Shown: positions 1,943 to 44,052 of the stretch, piece by piece | Layout: every line of letters starts with the position of its first letter | How positions within the stretch are numbered: the stretch's first letter is position 1 | NCBI GenBank assembly: GCA_903919315.1 | Contig: CAIXHP010000051.1 | Span: 16,166-80,165, forward strand | Origin: an uncultured Pseudomonadota bacterium | Lineage (GTDB): Bacteria > Pseudomonadota > Alphaproteobacteria > UBA9219 | Direction: 5' to 3' | Length of the DNA stretch: 64,000 bases | Made by a program: the position numbers and the translations under genes | Notes under the pieces: generated by a model | Seen by the model: the letters and a program-made list of their open reading frames with translations, nothing else | The model's database searches: none | What the model was told of the DNA's origin: nothing

Positions 1943-2395
1943 ATGATACGGATGAGTAAACTGGCTGACTATTCGTTTGTCATTCTGAATCAGATGATGA
2001 GCGCGGGCGGCGAGCCGAGTTCGGCGTCGGATTTGGCGACAAAAACGACGTTGCCGTTGCCGACTGTGGCCAAATTGATGAAAATGCTCGCCAAAAACGG
2101 GCTCGTAACAGCGCACCGCGGCGCGACGGGTGGTTATCGTTTGGCGCTGCCGCCCGAGAGTATCTCCATTGCCCGCATCATCGAAGCCGTGGATGGCCCG
2201 ATCACTCTGACCGAATGCGTGGACGAAACCGAACCCGCCTGCGCGGTGCAACGCTATTGCCCGATGTACAGGGGCTGGGGCCGCGTTAATGAGGCCATGC
2301 GCCATGCGCTGGAAAATGTGTTTCTGGCGGATATGGTCGGCTGCCCGTCGTGTACCTGCCATCCCGAACCGGGAGCGGCGACGGTAAGCGTGTGA
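1943..2395 (+). CDS. Rrf2-family iron-sulfur regulator of the SUF operon
   Basis: This 150-residue protein is an Rrf2/IscR-type winged-helix repressor. Residues 1-65 form the DNA-binding domain ([22 protein letters not shown]). Cysteines at 92, 100 and 106 sit where IscR coordinates its [2Fe-2S] cluster, and three more lie near the C-terminus (134, 137, 139). It is the first gene before sufB, as in the SufR-like class of alphaproteobacteria and Xanthomonas-type bacteria that represses suf genes when Fe-S status is adequate. The start at 1943 has an AGGCGG ribosome-binding sequence six to seven bases upstream; a second ATG lies three codons in. Sensing of a cluster is inferred from the cysteine pattern. 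Confidence 0.9.
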
Positions 2396-2421
2396 CCCCA
2401 CGCGCAGTGGAGAGGCTTTTC

Positions 2422-3888
2422 ATGGACGCTAAGGTCGGTACGGCGACGCAGATCGAAACTCTGGTCGGGGCCGGATACAAATACGGCTTTGTCTCTCCCA
2501 TCGAAACCGAAACCGCGCCCCAGGGACTCAGCGAAGACACGGTTCGTTTCATCTCTGCGAAAAAAGGCGAACCGGAGTGGCTTTTGGACTGGCGGCTCAA
2601 GGCGTACCGGCTCTGGGTGACGCTCCGCGAGCCGGACTGGGCCCATCTGAAACACCCGCCGATTGATTATCAAGCCTCCAGTTACTACGCCGCGCCCAAG
2701 AAAAAGGCGCAACCGGCGAGCCTCGACGAAGTTGATCCCGAACTGCTGCGCGCCTACGCCAAGCTCGGCATCCCGCTGCGCGAACAGGCGATGCTGGCCG
2801 GAGTCGCGCCCAAGGTCGCGGTGGATGCCGTGTTCGACAGCGTGTCCGTCGCGACGACCTACAAAAAGGTGCTGGCCGAGCAAGGCATCATCTTCTGCTC
2901 GATCGCCGAAGCCGTGCGCGAACATCCCGATTTGGTGAGAAAATACCTCGGCTCGGTCGTGCCCGTTGCCGACAATTTCTTCGCGACTCTGAACACCGCC
3001 GTCTTCACCGACGGTTCCTTTGTCTATATCCCCAAGGGCGTGCGCTGCCCGATGGAACTGTCCACCTATTTTCGCATCAACGCCGCGAATACGGGCCAGT
3101 TCGAACGCACCCTCATCATCGCCGACGACGACAGCTATGTCAGCTATCTCGAAGGCTGCACCGCGCCCAAGCGGGACGAAAACCAGCTGCATGCGGCGGT
3201 GGTGGAACTGGTGGCGCTGGATCGGGCGCAGATCAAATACGCCACGGTGCAAAACTGGTACCCCGGCGACGCTGAGGGCAAGGGCGGCATCTACAATTTT
3301 GTCACCAAGCGCGGCCTGTGCCGTGGCATCGCCTCGCGCATTTCATGGACGCAGGTGGAAACCGGTTCGGCCATCACATGGAAGTATCCCAGCTGCGTGT
3401 TGCAGGGCGACGATTCGGCGGGCGCGTTCTATTCCATCGCCATCACCAACCATCATCAGCAAGCCGACACCGGCACCAAGATGATCCACATCGGCAAGAA
3501 CACGCGCTCGACCATCGTTTCCAAAGGTATCAGCGCCGGACACGCGCAGAACACCTATCGCGGTCTCGTCAAAATCCTCCGCACCGCCACGGGCGCGCGC
3601 AACAAGACGCAGTGCGACTCGCTGTTGATAGGGGCCACCTGCGGCGCACATACCGTGCCCTATATCGAATCCCGCAACCCCACGGCGCGGGTGGAGCATG
3701 AAGCCACCACGTCAAAGATCAGCGAAGACCAGTTGTTCTATTGCCAACAGCGCGGCCTCGACCCCGAAGAAGCCATGGCCCTTATCGTCAACGGATTTTG
3801 CAAAGAGGTTTTGCAGGAACTCCCCATGGAATTCGCCGTCGAAGCCCAAAAATTGGTAGGGATCAGTCTGGAAGGAAGCGTAGGCTGA
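2422..3888 (+). CDS. sufB: Fe-S cluster assembly scaffold protein SufB
   Basis: SufB forms the SufBC2D scaffold on which Fe-S clusters are assembled in the cytosol. The 488-residue product has the conserved segments [29 protein letters not shown] and [17 protein letters not shown], the last two near the catalytic cysteine and cluster site at the C-terminus. The frame runs upstream to 2350, but the ATG at 2422 is preceded by GGAGAGG and gives the normal family length, so I chose it. It follows the Rrf2 gene by 26 bases. Downstream, the expected immediate sufC is displaced by an inverted-repeat element carrying a DUF559 gene, which begins two bases after the sufB stop. Confidence 0.97.
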
Positions 3889-3890
3889 AT

Positions 3891-3931
3891 CCCCTCCCCC
3901 TCGTGGGGAGGGTTAGGGAGGGGGGAGCGCC
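3891..3931. repeat. G-rich palindromic repeat, copy A (left arm of DUF559 element)
   Basis: The repeat contains CCCTCCCCCTCGTGGGGAGG followed by GTTAGGGAGGGGGG and GCGCC. It starts two bases after the sufB stop codon. Its reverse complement recurs at 4358-4400, so the two copies form inverted arms around the DUF559 gene. Confidence 0.9.
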
Positions 3932-3966
3932 GCTTGGCGCAAACCGCCCAGACAAGAGGAACGGAG

Positions 3967-4431
3967 ATGCGGCTCAACGACCACCAAAACACGCCCCACG
4001 ACCACCAGCGGGCCAAAGCCCTACGCAACGGCGCTTCGTCGGTTGAGCGAAAGCTATGGCGGTTGCTGCGCGTGAAAGCCGCCCGGAAAGGTTTAAAGTT
4101 CCGCAGGCAATGCGCGGTGCATCCGTACTTCGCCGACTTTGCGTGCCTTGAGGCGCGGCTGTTGGTAGAGTTGGACGGATCGTCGCATGAGACGCGGCTT
4201 GCGTATGACCAAGCGCGGGACGATGATTTGCGGCGGCGCGGCTTTGTGATCGCGCGGTTTAGTAACGACGATGTGCTGCGCAACGGCGAAGGTGTCGTGG
4301 CGGCGATTTTGGAGAAGGCGGAAGTTTTGGCGCATAGTGATAAGCCTTGCGCCGGGCGGAACGCCCCCCTCCCCAACCCTCCCCACGAGGGGGAGGGAGC
4401 ATTGAAGGCGGAAGAAAGACATCATGCTTGA
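3967..4431 (+). CDS. DUF559 endonuclease-fold protein
   Basis: The 154-residue protein has the DUF559 core, related to very-short-patch and restriction-type endonuclease folds: SVERKLWRLLR, then LKFRRQCAVHPYFADFAC, LLVELDGSSHE and DDDLRRRGFVIARF. The D...E-x-D arrangement (DFAC, VELDG) is the expected metal-binding site. The ATG at 3967 follows a GAGGAACGGAG ribosome-binding stretch; a TTG at 3934 is a weaker alternative. The last 20 or so residues (PLPNPPHEGEG) are encoded by the right repeat arm, and the stop overlaps the sufC start by eight bases. Its cellular substrate is unknown. Its position between inverted repeats suggests it serves the repeat element rather than Fe-S assembly. Confidence 0.8.
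   Translation: MRLNDHQNTPHDHQRAKALRNGASSVERKLWRLLRVKAARKGLKFRRQCAVHPYFADFACLEARLLVELDGSSHETRLAYDQARDDDLRRRGFVIARFSNDDVLRNGEGVVAAILEKAEVLAHSDKPCAGRNAPLPNPPHEGEGALKAEERHHA
4358..4400. repeat. G-rich palindromic repeat, copy B (right arm of DUF559 element)
   Basis: This is the reverse complement of copy A with minor changes: CCCCCCTCCCCAACCCTCCC followed by CACGAGGGGGAGGG. It is translated as the PLPNPPHEGEG tail of the DUF559 protein. It ends 23 bases before the sufC start codon. Confidence 0.9.
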
Positions 4432-5176
4432 TATCAACAACCTCCACGCCGTCGTTGACGGTAAGGAAATTCTCAAAGGCATCAACCTGCATGTTCCGGC
4501 GGGCGAGGTGCATGCCGTCATGGGCCCGAACGGCGCGGGCAAGAGTACGCTGTCCTATGTGCTGGCGGGACGCAGCGGGTACGATGTGACGCAAGGTTCG
4601 GTGGCGTTCCGGGGACAAGACCTGCTGGCGCTAAAGCCGGAGGAACGCGCGGCGGCGGGCCTCTTTCTGGCGTTTCAATATCCGGTGGAAATTCCGGGCG
4701 TGACCAACATGAATTTCCTCAAGACCGCCCTGAACGCCGTGCGCGAGGCGCGGGGCGAAAGCCCACTCGACGCGATGCAGATGCTCAAGCTGCTGCGCGA
4801 CAAGGCGAAAAACATCGGCATGACGGAAGACATGTTAAAGCGCGCCGTCAACGCCGGCTTTTCCGGCGGCGAGAAAAAGCGCAACGAAATCCTGCAAATG
4901 GCCGTGCTGGAGCCGCGTTTCTGCGTGCTGGACGAAACCGACAGCGGCCTCGACATTGACGCGCTCAAGGTCGTCGCCGATGGCGTCAACGCGCTGCGCG
5001 GGCCTGATCGCGGCATGCTGGTCATCACCCACTATCAACGCCTGTTGGACTATATCAAGCCCGACCGCGTGCATGTGCTGGCGCAAGGCCGCATCCAACG
5101 CGAAGGCGGCCCGGAACTGGCGTTGGAACTGGAAGAAAACGGCTACGCCGCTTTCGGCGGGGACGCGGCGGCATGA
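4424..5176 (+). CDS. sufC: Fe-S assembly ATPase SufC
   Basis: SufC is the ABC-type ATPase of the SufBC2D complex and drives its conformational changes. The 250-residue product has Walker A GPNGAGKST at residues 34-42, a Q-loop in FLAFQYPVEIPG, the signature FSGGEKKR at 146-153 and Walker B CVLDETDSGLD from 167. These match the SufC subgroup, and no membrane domain is attached. The start ATG at 4424 overlaps the end of the upstream DUF559 gene. The stop overlaps the HAD gene start by four bases (ATGA), implying translational coupling. It would normally follow sufB directly; here about 535 bases, mostly the repeat-bounded element, separate them. Confidence 0.97.
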   Translation: MLDINNLHAVVDGKEILKGINLHVPAGEVHAVMGPNGAGKSTLSYVLAGRSGYDVTQGSVAFRGQDLLALKPEERAAAGLFLAFQYPVEIPGVTNMNFLKTALNAVREARGESPLDAMQMLKLLRDKAKNIGMTEDMLKRAVNAGFSGGEKKRNEILQMAVLEPRFCVLDETDSGLDIDALKVVADGVNALRGPDRGMLVITHYQRLLDYIKPDRVHVLAQGRIQREGGPELALELEENGYAAFGGDAAA

Positions 5177-8984: not shown

Positions 8985-9026
8985 CTCCCTCCCCCTCGTG
9001 GGGAGGGTCGGGGAGGGGGAAGAACG
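8985..9026. repeat. G-rich palindromic repeat, copy C
   Basis: It contains CCCTCCCCCTCGTGGGGAGG followed by GTCGGGGAGGGGG, matching copy A. It is paired in inverted orientation with copy D 75 bases further on. Confidence 0.9.
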
Positions 9027-9100
9027 ACTGGGATGTGGCGTGTGTGATAGGGGGATAGGATAGCGGGCAGTACCGTTCTTTTTCTCCAACATTCTCCTTG

Positions 9101-9142
9101 CGGAACGCCCCCCTCCCTAACCCTCCCCACGAGGGGGCGGGG
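9101..9142. repeat. G-rich palindromic repeat, copy D
   Basis: It contains CGGAACGCCCCCCTCCCTAA followed by CCCTCCCCACGAGGGGG, matching copy B. With copy C it frames a 158-bp unit that carries no gene, as if the DUF559 gene had been lost or never present. The rest of 8973-9230 is non-coding with nothing else recognisable. Confidence 0.9.
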
Positions 9143-16023: not shown

Positions 16024-16064
16024 TAAAAGCCCTCCCCCCTTGGGGGGAGGGTTGGGTGGGGGGT
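16024..16064. repeat. G-rich palindromic repeat, copy E (solo)
   Basis: It contains CCCTCCCCCCTTGGGGGGAG and then GGTTGGGTGGGGGGTC, the same subtype as the right arms of the tandem block at 24 kb. It lies five bases after the parvulin gene stop and has no partner arm nearby. Confidence 0.85.
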
Positions 16065-24125: not shown

Positions 24126-24503
24126 CCGTCCCCTGAAACAATCCCCGCCCAAATTCCTCCCCCCTTGAGGGGGAGGTTAGGAGGGGGGTGGGTTCCGCAA
24201 GGACGAAGTCGGCAAGTCCATCTCCCGCCCGCCGCAAAGCTCGCGCCATGAACCGGCACCTACGGACCACGACCCCCCACCCAACCCTCCCCCCAAGGGG
24301 GGGAGGGCTTTTGTTCCGTCCACTGAAACAACCCCCGCCCCAATTCCTCCCCCCTTGAGGGGGAGGTTAGGAGGGGGGTGGGTTCCGCAAGGGCAAAGTC
24401 AGCCAATCCATCCCCAGCCGCAAAGCTCGCGCCATGAACCGGCACCTACGGGCCATGACCCCCCACCCAACCCTCCCCCTCAAGGGGGGATGGCTTTTTG
24501 TTC
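24126..24503. repeat. Tandem duplication of an inverted-repeat unit (copies F-I)
   Basis: Two direct copies of a unit of about 190 bp lie at about 24126-24315 and 24316-24503. Each begins near a CTGAAACAA word and holds a left arm (24151-24198, 24341-24388) and an inverted right arm (24271-24312, 24458-24499) of the G-rich repeat family. Between the arms is a shared stretch with CGCAAAGCTCGCGCCATGAA. The arms here resemble solo copy E more than copies A-D. The block fills most of the 24053-24479 gap, with no other gene visible. The end of the second unit supplies the last codons and stop of the YejA-like gene. Confidence 0.85.
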
Positions 24504-43400: not shown

Positions 43401-44052
43401 GCGTGGCGCGATGGCCTCCCTCCCCCTCGTGGGGAGGGTCGGGGAGGGCGGCGTTCCACCCGCCGAACCGCTGGCCATCCCCTCATGGCTCCACCGCGTC
43501 CCGCCGCCTGAACCCTCGCCGCCACGGCCCCTCACGCCGTCGCGCCCCACCGAGGACGAACCTGCGTTGGCGCCGCCCCAAGACGCGCGGCGCTTCGCGC
43601 GTGGCCGGATCATCCACCGCTTGCTGCAAAGCTTGCCAGAGGTCGAGGCCGCGCAGCAGGAAAGCGTCGCTTTGCGTTTTCTTGCCAACCCGCAACACGC
43701 CCTCACGCCGGACGAACAGGCCGACGTGGGCCGCGAGGTTCTGGCCTTGTTGCGCCATCCCGATCACGCGCCGTTGTTCGCGCCGGGCAGCCGCGCCGAA
43801 GTTCCCATCGTGGGGCGTTGCGAGGATCGTCTGATCGCGGGGCAGGTGGATCGCCTGTGCGTGCGGGACGGCGAAGTCTGGATCGTCGATTACAAAACCA
43901 ACCGCCCGCCGCCGCAAGATGCCGCGAACGTTCCCGCCATCTACCGCCGCCAAATGGAGGCCTACCGCTCTGTGCTGCGGGAAATCTATCCCGACAAAAT
44001 GGTGCGTTGCTTCCTGCTCTGGACGTACGACCTGCGGCTGATGGAGCTGTGA
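40480..44052 (+). CDS. addA: AddA helicase-nuclease with two in-frame repeat insertions
   Basis: AddA is the UvrD-type helicase and nuclease subunit of AddAB. The 1190-residue protein has Walker A VGASAGSGKTKVLADRV near residues 39-55, LCLTFTRAAAAEMS, DHILVDEAQDTSPEQWDII, VGDEKQSIYSF, ITTVHAAKGLEAPVVIL, RRLLYVALTRAADRLYV and the C-terminal nuclease WIVDYKTNRPP. Two palindromic repeats lie in frame: family 2 at residues about 267-302 (VIPAKAGIH ... MDPRLRGDDA) and the G-rich family at about 978-993 (SLPLVGRVGEGGVP). Both fall between conserved motifs, so activity is probably kept. A trxA gene often follows addA; here a hypothetical gene on the other strand does. Confidence 0.95.
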   Translation: MSEPAHPFSDGLIVPLAPADPQPDAEQRRASHPTASVWVGASAGSGKTKVLADRVTRLLLAGVKPQKILCLTFTRAAAAEMSIRLTRRLARWATCSDDALRHDLDELQNAAPEPEQLDAARRLFATVLACPGGMRIRTLHAFAQEILRRFPLEAGLSPHFALQEEADAAALLHETQNDLLQEAAANPDGAEGRALRLLVKDLGEDSFTSILREASKDPQRLNAALDKAGGFAQLVNALRGLLALEPDDTETSILRAAVETMDSPSRVIPAKAGIHHLTPTPSPSAPTLPPHEMDPRLRGDDARGEAAIKQAATWLAAGSSTDAENAKRITDWLAAPLEERMATFHDYCRGYLTAKGEVYARPATKKVVAAHPEILDILAAEATRVSLVKERLDAVRTAEQTEALLTLAVTLIERYAARKAAQGMLDYDDLIRHTVALLRRPGIAPWVLFKLDGGVDHILVDEAQDTSPEQWDIIRALAEDFFAGDSAWTQNRTLFVVGDEKQSIYSFLKADPDAFDRMRTHFRQRINESGKDYRDVALNVSFRSTPAVLKAVDAVFAADHARRGVARDEVRHYPHRREAVGRVEVWPLKELTKDEATEGAWTLPVGYEPEQDPAVELAATLAERIKAWVKSGATVYDRTLKQDRPLTPGDVMILVQTRGRFVDHLVRQLKERNVPVTGVDRMTLAAQLAVMDLVALLQFTLLPEDDLTLATALRGPLLGGSEDQLMQLAIGRTGSLWQSLKANEAYAPWRDYLQRCLDAADNITPFAMLARLLSEPCPADEHSGRRALWARLGPDAQDPMDELLNAAQDYGARHTPSLQGFLHWLMASEAEIKRELDSGAGQVRITTVHAAKGLEAPVVILPDTVRVPNKNKLPKFLWDSERQIPFYLAREPINGAMRRLREGARQKQLEEYRRLLYVALTRAADRLYVCGWKPSRTEGFDESWYHLIHSALKPLHEPSAEAGEAVVAFADPDVRGAMASLPLVGRVGEGGVPPAEPLAIPSWLHRVPPPEPSPPRPLTPSRPTEDEPALAPPQDARRFARGRIIHRLLQSLPEVEAAQQESVALRFLANPQHALTPDEQADVGREVLALLRHPDHAPLFAPGSRAEVPIVGRCEDRLIAGQVDRLCVRDGEVWIVDYKTNRPPPQDAANVPAIYRRQMEAYRSVLREIYPDKMVRCFLLWTYDLRLMEL
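41278..41383. repeat. Repeat family 2 inserted in frame in addA
   Basis: The left arm CGTCATCCCCGCGAAGGCGG (41278-41305 in full) and right arm (41356-41383) are a perfect 28-bp inverted repeat around a 50-base middle. The whole is translated without a stop as part of AddA. Confidence 0.95.
43413..43457. repeat. G-rich palindromic repeat, copy J, in frame in addA
   Basis: It contains CCCTCCCCCTCGTGGGGAGG then GTCGGGGAGGGCGGCG, closely matching copies A and C. It is a single arm and encodes SLPLVGRVGEGGVP in the linker before the AddA nuclease domain. Confidence 0.92.

Follow-up and report, generated by a model that had tools for sequence, protein, structure and literature searches.

A gene for a DUF559 protein stands inside the suf operon of an uncultured alphaproteobacterium of the UBA9219 lineage, set between two inverted repeats, and the locus raises the question of whether gene and repeats together form a mobile element and what would move it. 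The window, by which we mean the whole stretch of 64,000 nucleotides analyzed (contig CAIXHP010000051.1, positions 16,166 to 80,165), holds one DUF559 ORF between sufB and sufC, with SufB, SufC, SufD, and SufS as neighbors according to NCBIfam naming. The parts of the locus, in window coordinates, are the following.

2350..3888, forward strand: sufB, host gene upstream (NCBIfam)
3891..3925, forward strand: left arm core, with 5' stem 3892-3899, loop 3900-3904, 3' stem 3905-3912, spacer TTA 3913-3915, and third G-run 3916-3925; likeness to the right arm reaches 3942
3967..4431, forward strand: DUF559 (PF04480) gene of the Vsr/I-Bth0305I-fold nuclease family, 154 amino acids from ATG 3967, alternative start TTG 3934; E, D, ExD, H, and D intact
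4364..4397, reverse strand: right arm core, inverted copy of the left, spacer TTG; encodes part of the DUF559 C terminus; likeness begins at 4347
4424..5176, forward strand: sufC, host gene downstream (NCBIfam); its ATG overlaps the end of the DUF559 frame

The first-pass annotation of this DNA had described inverted repeats of about 40 bp that bracket exactly one DUF559 gene, in a unit that splits sufB from sufC two bases after the sufB stop. Both points hold when read directly from the sequence: the sufB stop occupies 3886-3888 and a C-run begins at 3891, two bases on, and a repeat search placed the inverted arms at 3892-3942 and 4347-4397 (51 nt, 88% complementary, 404 nt between them). The ORF between the arms matched PF04480 (E value of 7e-32, 110 bits against a curated cutoff of 20.6). 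Its frame continues across the right arm and beyond the sufC ATG at 4424, ending in a stop codon at 4429-4431 among the first sufC codons, which bears out the proposal that the repeat supplies the DUF559 C terminus. The unit has terminal inverted repeats, as insertion sequences and MITEs do, and DUF559 was the only family match among the ORFs scanned between the arms, where no DDE-type or other known transposase appeared. We consider it likely that this unit (window positions 3891 to 4397), a DUF559 gene bracketed by inverted BoxC-type repeats, is a mobile element and that its predicted nuclease spreads the repeats.

The encoded protein has an intact active site and is predicted to act as a nuclease. 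The residues E, D, ExD, H, and D were invariant in 19/19 and 33/33 aligned DUF559 domains, that of the window included. Using the structural model of the window protein (mean pLDDT of 85.6), a Foldseek search retrieved PDB entry 3hrl (E value of 3e-6) and, as second-best match, the I-Bth0305I domain 3r3p (8e-4), with a weak match to 1vsr (0.2). The profile kinship of YcjD, the DUF559 protein of E. coli, with Vsr was reported in 2005 (PMC1189080). In fold, DUF559 thus resembles both the Vsr mismatch endonuclease and the homing endonuclease I-Bth0305I; the former is a repair enzyme and the latter a homing enzyme, unlike the DUF559 units with their triplex-type arms and gene-free copies. To our knowledge, neither Vsr nor I-Bth0305I carries triplex-type inverted ends or gene-free satellites.

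The arms themselves point to a known repeat. Knowledge of BoxC/PIT/TM repeats in E. coli goes back to the 1990s. Their layout was described as that of an intrastrand triplex motif present in over 260 genomes; E. coli BoxC has two spacer types, TTA and CCG, which pair in an inverted arrangement, and 23 copies in strain K-12 (PMC4666352; Holder et al. 2015). That description has triplex folding demonstrated in vitro and not supported in vivo, states that transposase or integrase remnants were never found around the sites, and considers, in its discussion, replication trouble and repair as sources of their instability (PMC4666352). The left arm of the window unit forms a hairpin, CCCTCCCC-CTCGT-GGGGAGGG, which faces outward in both arms and is followed by a 3-nt spacer and a third G-run. 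Read onward from the 3' stem, the left arm is GGGGAGGG-TTA-GGGAGGGGGG, that is, a hairpin and then a G-run mirroring the 3' stem over a short spacer, as in BoxC/PIT/TM.

This mirror relation was examined in 137 distinct arms from 110 loci, using a fixed 3-nt spacer and comparing two offsets, one counted from the last A in the 3' stem to the stem end and the other along the G-run of the third strand up to its first non-G base. The two offsets were equal in 61% of the arms versus 26% after permutation (maximum of 39% in 5000 permutations), statistics that ignore kinship among the arm sequences. Equal offsets amount to the mirror symmetry that a folded-back third strand needs, and this symmetry is kept across lineages while the arm sequence itself changes. 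Judged by their sequence, the DUF559 arms are BoxC/PIT/TM repeats: they share the C-rich stem, loop, G-rich stem, short spacer of TTA or CCG type, third G-run, and inverted pairing. Unlike BoxC/PIT/TM as presented in PMC4666352, the window-type repeat goes with a nuclease gene of its own and forms the ends of discrete units that carry this gene. A repeat search in E. coli K-12 showed an inverted pair of BoxC type beside the 3' end of ycjD, and one of its arms overlaps the gene end; this gene is not bracketed, since the pair adjoins that side only. Our 22-nt pattern had no match at ycjD, where the pair is visible by repeat search, and two 50-kb stretches of the K-12 genome contained no motif match.

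The repeat also occurs away from the DUF559 gene, at four further places in the window.

8987..9141, no strand: gene-free arm pair of the same subfamily as the DUF559 arms, 155 bp, non-autonomous type; the genome has five more pairs like it at other places, each 153-156 bp long
16030..16063, forward strand: single unit of a second subfamily (pattern search)
24156..24492, no strand: two tandem arm pairs of the second subfamily, CCTCCCCCC..GGGGGAGGTTAGGAGGGGGG, near the arm type of the other two DUF559 genes in the genome
43418..43444, forward strand: single repeat unit in frame inside addA (strict pattern; gene naming by NCBIfam)

The strict arm pattern (up to 3 mismatches) had five occurrences in the window and none in 100 shuffles: the two DUF559 arms, the gene-free pair, and the copy inside addA. 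The last two had been noticed on first reading, together with a tandem block assigned to the same repeat; the block at 24156-24492 proved instead to consist of two arm pairs of the related second subfamily. In this block, a gene-free pair of the second subfamily is tandemly duplicated with a period of about 190 bp. Across the genome (2.4 Mb, 70 contigs), the strict pattern had 30 sites versus none for a reversed control pattern, and 12 of the 30 make up six gene-free inverted pairs spanning 153-156 bp. Three DUF559 genes were found in this genome, all three flanked by inverted repeats of the BoxC type; three genes against 30 sites and six gene-free pairs is the low-copy-gene proportion of REP and RAYT. 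The other two genes have arms of the second subfamily (CCTCCCCCC..GGGGGGAGG, with TGGGGGG as third run), and orientation varies, with the hairpin outward at the window locus and inward, toward the gene, at these two.

Repeat units also lie in frame inside at least seven conserved genes of the window genome, namely, those for RecG, IleRS, ValRS, PheT, KDO transferase, AddA, and a peptide-type ABC ATPase. Rickettsia palindromic elements are likewise palindromic units in frame in conserved protein genes, a likeness of layout, and we know of no nuclease gene that accompanies them. The translated repeat gives SLPLVGRVGEGG-type peptides (at 43418-43444 and in other in-frame units), which probably mark insertions in predicted proteins. 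For annotators, we suggest that peptides such as SLPLVGRVREGG in predicted bacterial proteins flag insertions of the DUF559-linked element.

To judge how regularly DUF559 genes are bracketed, we collected DUF559 loci from the window genome and its relatives in family, order, and class, 59 genomes in all. Each locus was scored by the best inverted alignment of its two 300-bp flanks and called positive when this score was at least 30 and exceeded the best of 100 shuffles. Matched inverted repeats were observed on both sides of 44 of the 50 full-domain loci, a set that excludes two loci at contig ends and seven partial domains; the remaining six were negative, and one of the seven partial-domain loci was positive. 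Controls stayed near zero, with 0/30 loci of DUF179, another small gene family (30 fetched from the same genomes), and 1/94 intervals displaced by 900 bp inside these loci. When flanks from different genomes were paired at random, a score of 30 was reached in 62/287 cases because the arms share the motif. The check proposed at the outset, whether DUF559 genes are flanked by the repeat beyond chance, thus came out in favor, within the genome (3/3) and in the wider set.

The arrangement extends well beyond the class. A phylum-wide search gave 14 bracketed loci among 30 of the best matches, the other 16 being without a pair. Among named public genomes (the best 80 of 545 confirmed stretches, found using a query from Pseudomonadota proteins), 61/79 loci were bracketed and 18/79 were not, after removal of one N-run artifact that had made the count 62/80; intervals shifted by 1200 bp gave 0/153. 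Positives in these best 80 of 545 span nine phylum-level groups, as taken from the titles of the sequence records, including Chloroflexi (3/3), Planctomycetota, Cyanobacteria (Gastranaerophilales), Aminicenantes, and Desulfobacterota; those of Nitrospirae and Patescibacteria sit at the score limit, and the single loci of Omnitrophota, Elusimicrobia, Dadabacteria, and Spirochaetes in the same set had no flanking pair. The window comes from a draft assembly of 70 contigs, which might invite an explanation by chance or misassembly, a reading that we find scarcely credible given that the same arrangement is present in strain genomes (e.g., Thiocapsa marina, Alcanivorax hongdengensis, and Pseudothauera rhizosphaerae) and is missing from shuffles and shifted intervals.

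In 14 genomes with at least two DUF559 loci, the left and right flanks of one locus aligned with a median score of 62 versus 26 across loci, and a flank's own partner beat the flanks of all other loci in 27/41 cases. One genome with eight tested loci had several clearly distinct arm types, each matched left to right. The arms belong to their own gene and are matched per gene more than per genome.

Some variation in the arms deserves mention. At eight loci, both arms of a unit contain a second hairpin, inserted after the first one and ahead of the third G-run. On a DUF559 tree of 40 rows, the arm type (plain or with extra hairpin) changed nine times, a bare count from which we draw no conclusion on co-segregation of arm type with DUF559 clade. 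At least three loci have TT as the spacer of the 5'-side arm and CC as that of the 3' arm, which recalls the type A/type B pairs reported for E. coli. The DUF559 locus of Legionella anisa has inverted arms of about 150 nt, made of a motif-like part and a long unrelated stretch.

Next to this association at single loci, we compared the presence of motif and gene genome by genome in 299 Pseudomonadota genomes at least 90% complete, using a pattern with a variable loop (an earlier pattern with a fixed 6-nt loop was too strict, with 6/59 genomes, and was replaced). At least five motif matches were present in 66/86 genomes with a full DUF559, in 11/187 without one, and in 2/26 with weak matches only; match counts include overlapping gap variants and overstate the number of sites. 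In the 13 families holding both states, the within-family odds ratio was 30 (p of 7e-11), and it was the same with two of these families left out. In the 299 genomes, the motif follows DUF559; a search of relatives for the repeat had been asked for in the first-pass annotation. A broader pattern gave 1 to 226 matches per genome versus 0 to 3 for the reversed control in ten genomes of several phyla reached through the named loci.

A close known parallel is the REP/REPIN system with its RAYT transposase (TnpA-REP), in which a low-copy gene is flanked by the repeat and accompanied by many short gene-free pairs and single units with hairpin ends. The DUF559 system shares all of these features, and ordinary REPs moved by a RAYT (Y1 HUH) transposase, with DUF559 as an accidental neighbor, would account for the REP-like anatomy; two Y1 genes exist in the window genome as well. 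These lie on other contigs, and the gene that the window repeat pair carries is DUF559, not a Y1 HUH gene. A REP hairpin has a GTAG or CGTC tag at its foot, and neither tag is present at the hairpin foot of the window arm, which reads TGAAT|CCCC. In the same 299 genomes, the Y1 transposase family (RAYT/IS200) did not predict the motif, which was present in 36/156 genomes with it versus 43/143 without (p of 0.19), whereas among Y1-negative genomes the motif was present in 35/47 with DUF559 versus 8/96 without. On this absent link, and with bracketing controls near zero, a RAYT origin of the repeats was rejected, and we give the accidental-neighbor account almost no weight. A mobile unit that spreads by its own DUF559 enzyme is, as we read it, RAYT-like in logic and unrelated in enzyme: DUF559 has a PD-(D/E)XK Vsr-like fold instead of a Y1 HUH, the arm has a mirror third strand, and there is no statistical link to Y1.

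The co-occurrence has exceptions, since 9/187 genomes without DUF559 have at least ten motif matches and 11/86 with DUF559 have none. The former would fit a different role, in which DUF559 is a housekeeping Vsr-like repair nuclease that processes or tames triplex or hairpin repeats moved by something else and is carried along with them or needed where they abound. The fold is related to Vsr, and a Caulobacter DUF559 protein is described in PMC12907096 as acting in methylation-linked DNA damage, with short-patch repair proposed. We nevertheless think such a role unlikely, though deserving of attention, given that each gene turns up together with its own pair of arms, as a single unit, at unrelated sites, that the arms are matched per gene more than per genome, and that Y1 transposases, the only other candidate mover examined, do not track the motif.

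Comparison of units supports movement of the whole. At several pairs of DUF559 loci, nucleotide similarity ends at the arm ends and the flanks look unrelated: the units of a Deltaproteobacterium and a Dadabacterium were 80% identical over 418 bp, those of Thiocapsa and Pseudothauera were 76% identical over 426 bp, and beta- and deltaproteobacterial units were 75-78% identical over about 420 bp. At the other pairs compared, similarity runs into shared neighbors or covers the domain only. Arm to arm, the units measure about 390-425 bp and occur in unrelated contexts, even across phyla. No target-site duplication was seen by eye at the unit ends in this comparison of filled loci. Among the loci compared, no genome had two closely similar DUF559 units, so that jumping of the gene itself would be rare or old.

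Filled and empty sites were sought at two slots. At the sufB-sufC junction, 24 family genomes were searched and 21 resolved; DUF559 was present in 6/21, the junction was bare in 9/21 (3-54 nt, sufB stop codon included), and other sequence was present in 6/21, in a comparison made between species and genera with ends not placed to the base. The empty junction that the first-pass annotation had asked to look for in relatives does exist. The junction appears to be a tolerant slot, its other content in the six genomes being, by eye, small ORFs or palindromes. On a quick 50-row tree, the six suf copies of DUF559 fell within one clade with others mixed in, at a cost of three changes, a pattern that a single ancestral insertion at the junction or several insertions could give. 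Neither of the two outcomes named beforehand as contrary was seen, namely, DUF559 in all relatives at suf with diverged or absent repeats, or a lack of genome-wide association between DUF559 and the repeat. The cleanest comparison of empty and filled sites is recG, at codon level: the RecG linker is uninterrupted in 17 family genomes, and five others have in-frame units that differ in sequence and lie at roughly the same codons; the three units whose length was measured add 20, 41, and 52 residues. In one of these five carriers the contig ends within the unit. One more genome ends its contig at the linker, and in one no RecG was found. Across the five genomes, this short linker has repeatedly accommodated in-frame units whose sequences differ.

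Re-use of two slots in several genera is also what a free-standing homing-endonuclease gene might leave behind, if it cut its empty target and were copied in by break repair, with the repeats as mere frayed ends, and the I-Bth0305I domain is the second-best structural match. We hold this to be quite improbable: although sufB-sufC and the RecG linker are re-used, flanks differ between the units compared and insertion contexts are varied instead of being one conserved gene site, and homing leaves unexplained both the many gene-free copies and the motif number that follows DUF559.

Other candidate sites were inspected. In one large-genome genus, perhaps Mesorhizobium (30 loci from 81 genomes), the starting genome was the only one in which inspection by eye showed a DUF559 unit, with ends not placed to the base; many of the other loci have a short junction and some have other inserts. 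The ycjD region was covered at 80% or more in 3334/5426 E. coli genomes. Its place was rejected as a clean empty site because it is a swap, with an efflux operon there in the three ycjD-less genomes opened; in PMC12817139, whose main text does not use the word "repeat," ycjD is described as an ORF that occupies the place of an efflux operon. The BoxC allele between tkt and ypfG of E. coli was likewise rejected, as it alternates with other repeat sequence, i.e., replacement.

The original idea of a nuclease-driven mobile repeat with short non-autonomous relatives, in the manner of RAYT, is supported by bracketing and co-occurrence, and we infer the nuclease-driven part, that is, recognition, cutting, and copying by the DUF559 enzyme. 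The course that we favor would begin with an arm becoming single-stranded, for example, during replication. The C-rich and G-rich stems would then pair, and the third G-run would fold back as the triplex strand. The Vsr-like DUF559 enzyme could recognize the folded arm and cut at or near its foot, after which repair or copying of single-stranded DNA would put a new copy elsewhere, mostly dispersing short gene-free units. Gene-free arm pairs and single arms would be non-autonomous passengers, and the DUF559 gene would remain low in copy number, much like a RAYT gene among its REPINs; the absence, among the loci compared, of closely similar DUF559 copies within any one genome agrees with an enzyme of few copies that serves many passengers.

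In its widest form, the proposal is for a new class of mobile elements, in which a lone PD-(D/E)XK (Vsr-like) nuclease recognizes and copies ends of the intrastrand-triplex type. At about 0.4-0.5 kb, such units would rank with the smallest autonomous mobile elements, and they would be the source of BoxC/PIT/TM repeats in many phyla, YcjD being the enzyme that belongs to BoxC in E. coli; we judge the case for this class to be evenly balanced. We know of no lone PD-(D/E)XK enzyme that moves repeats. The open-access literature searched, which leaves most subscription papers outside, showed no report linking DUF559 to inverted repeats or to BoxC, and as far as these searches go, the link between DUF559 and the repeat is new.

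If true, the tie between DUF559 and BoxC/PIT/TM explains at once the repeats and a large family of unknown function, and it brings a nuclease fold into the set of enzymes that are known to spread repeats. The nature and spread of triplex-prone repeats would then be reduced to one question, whether a DUF559 protein cuts its own folded arm.
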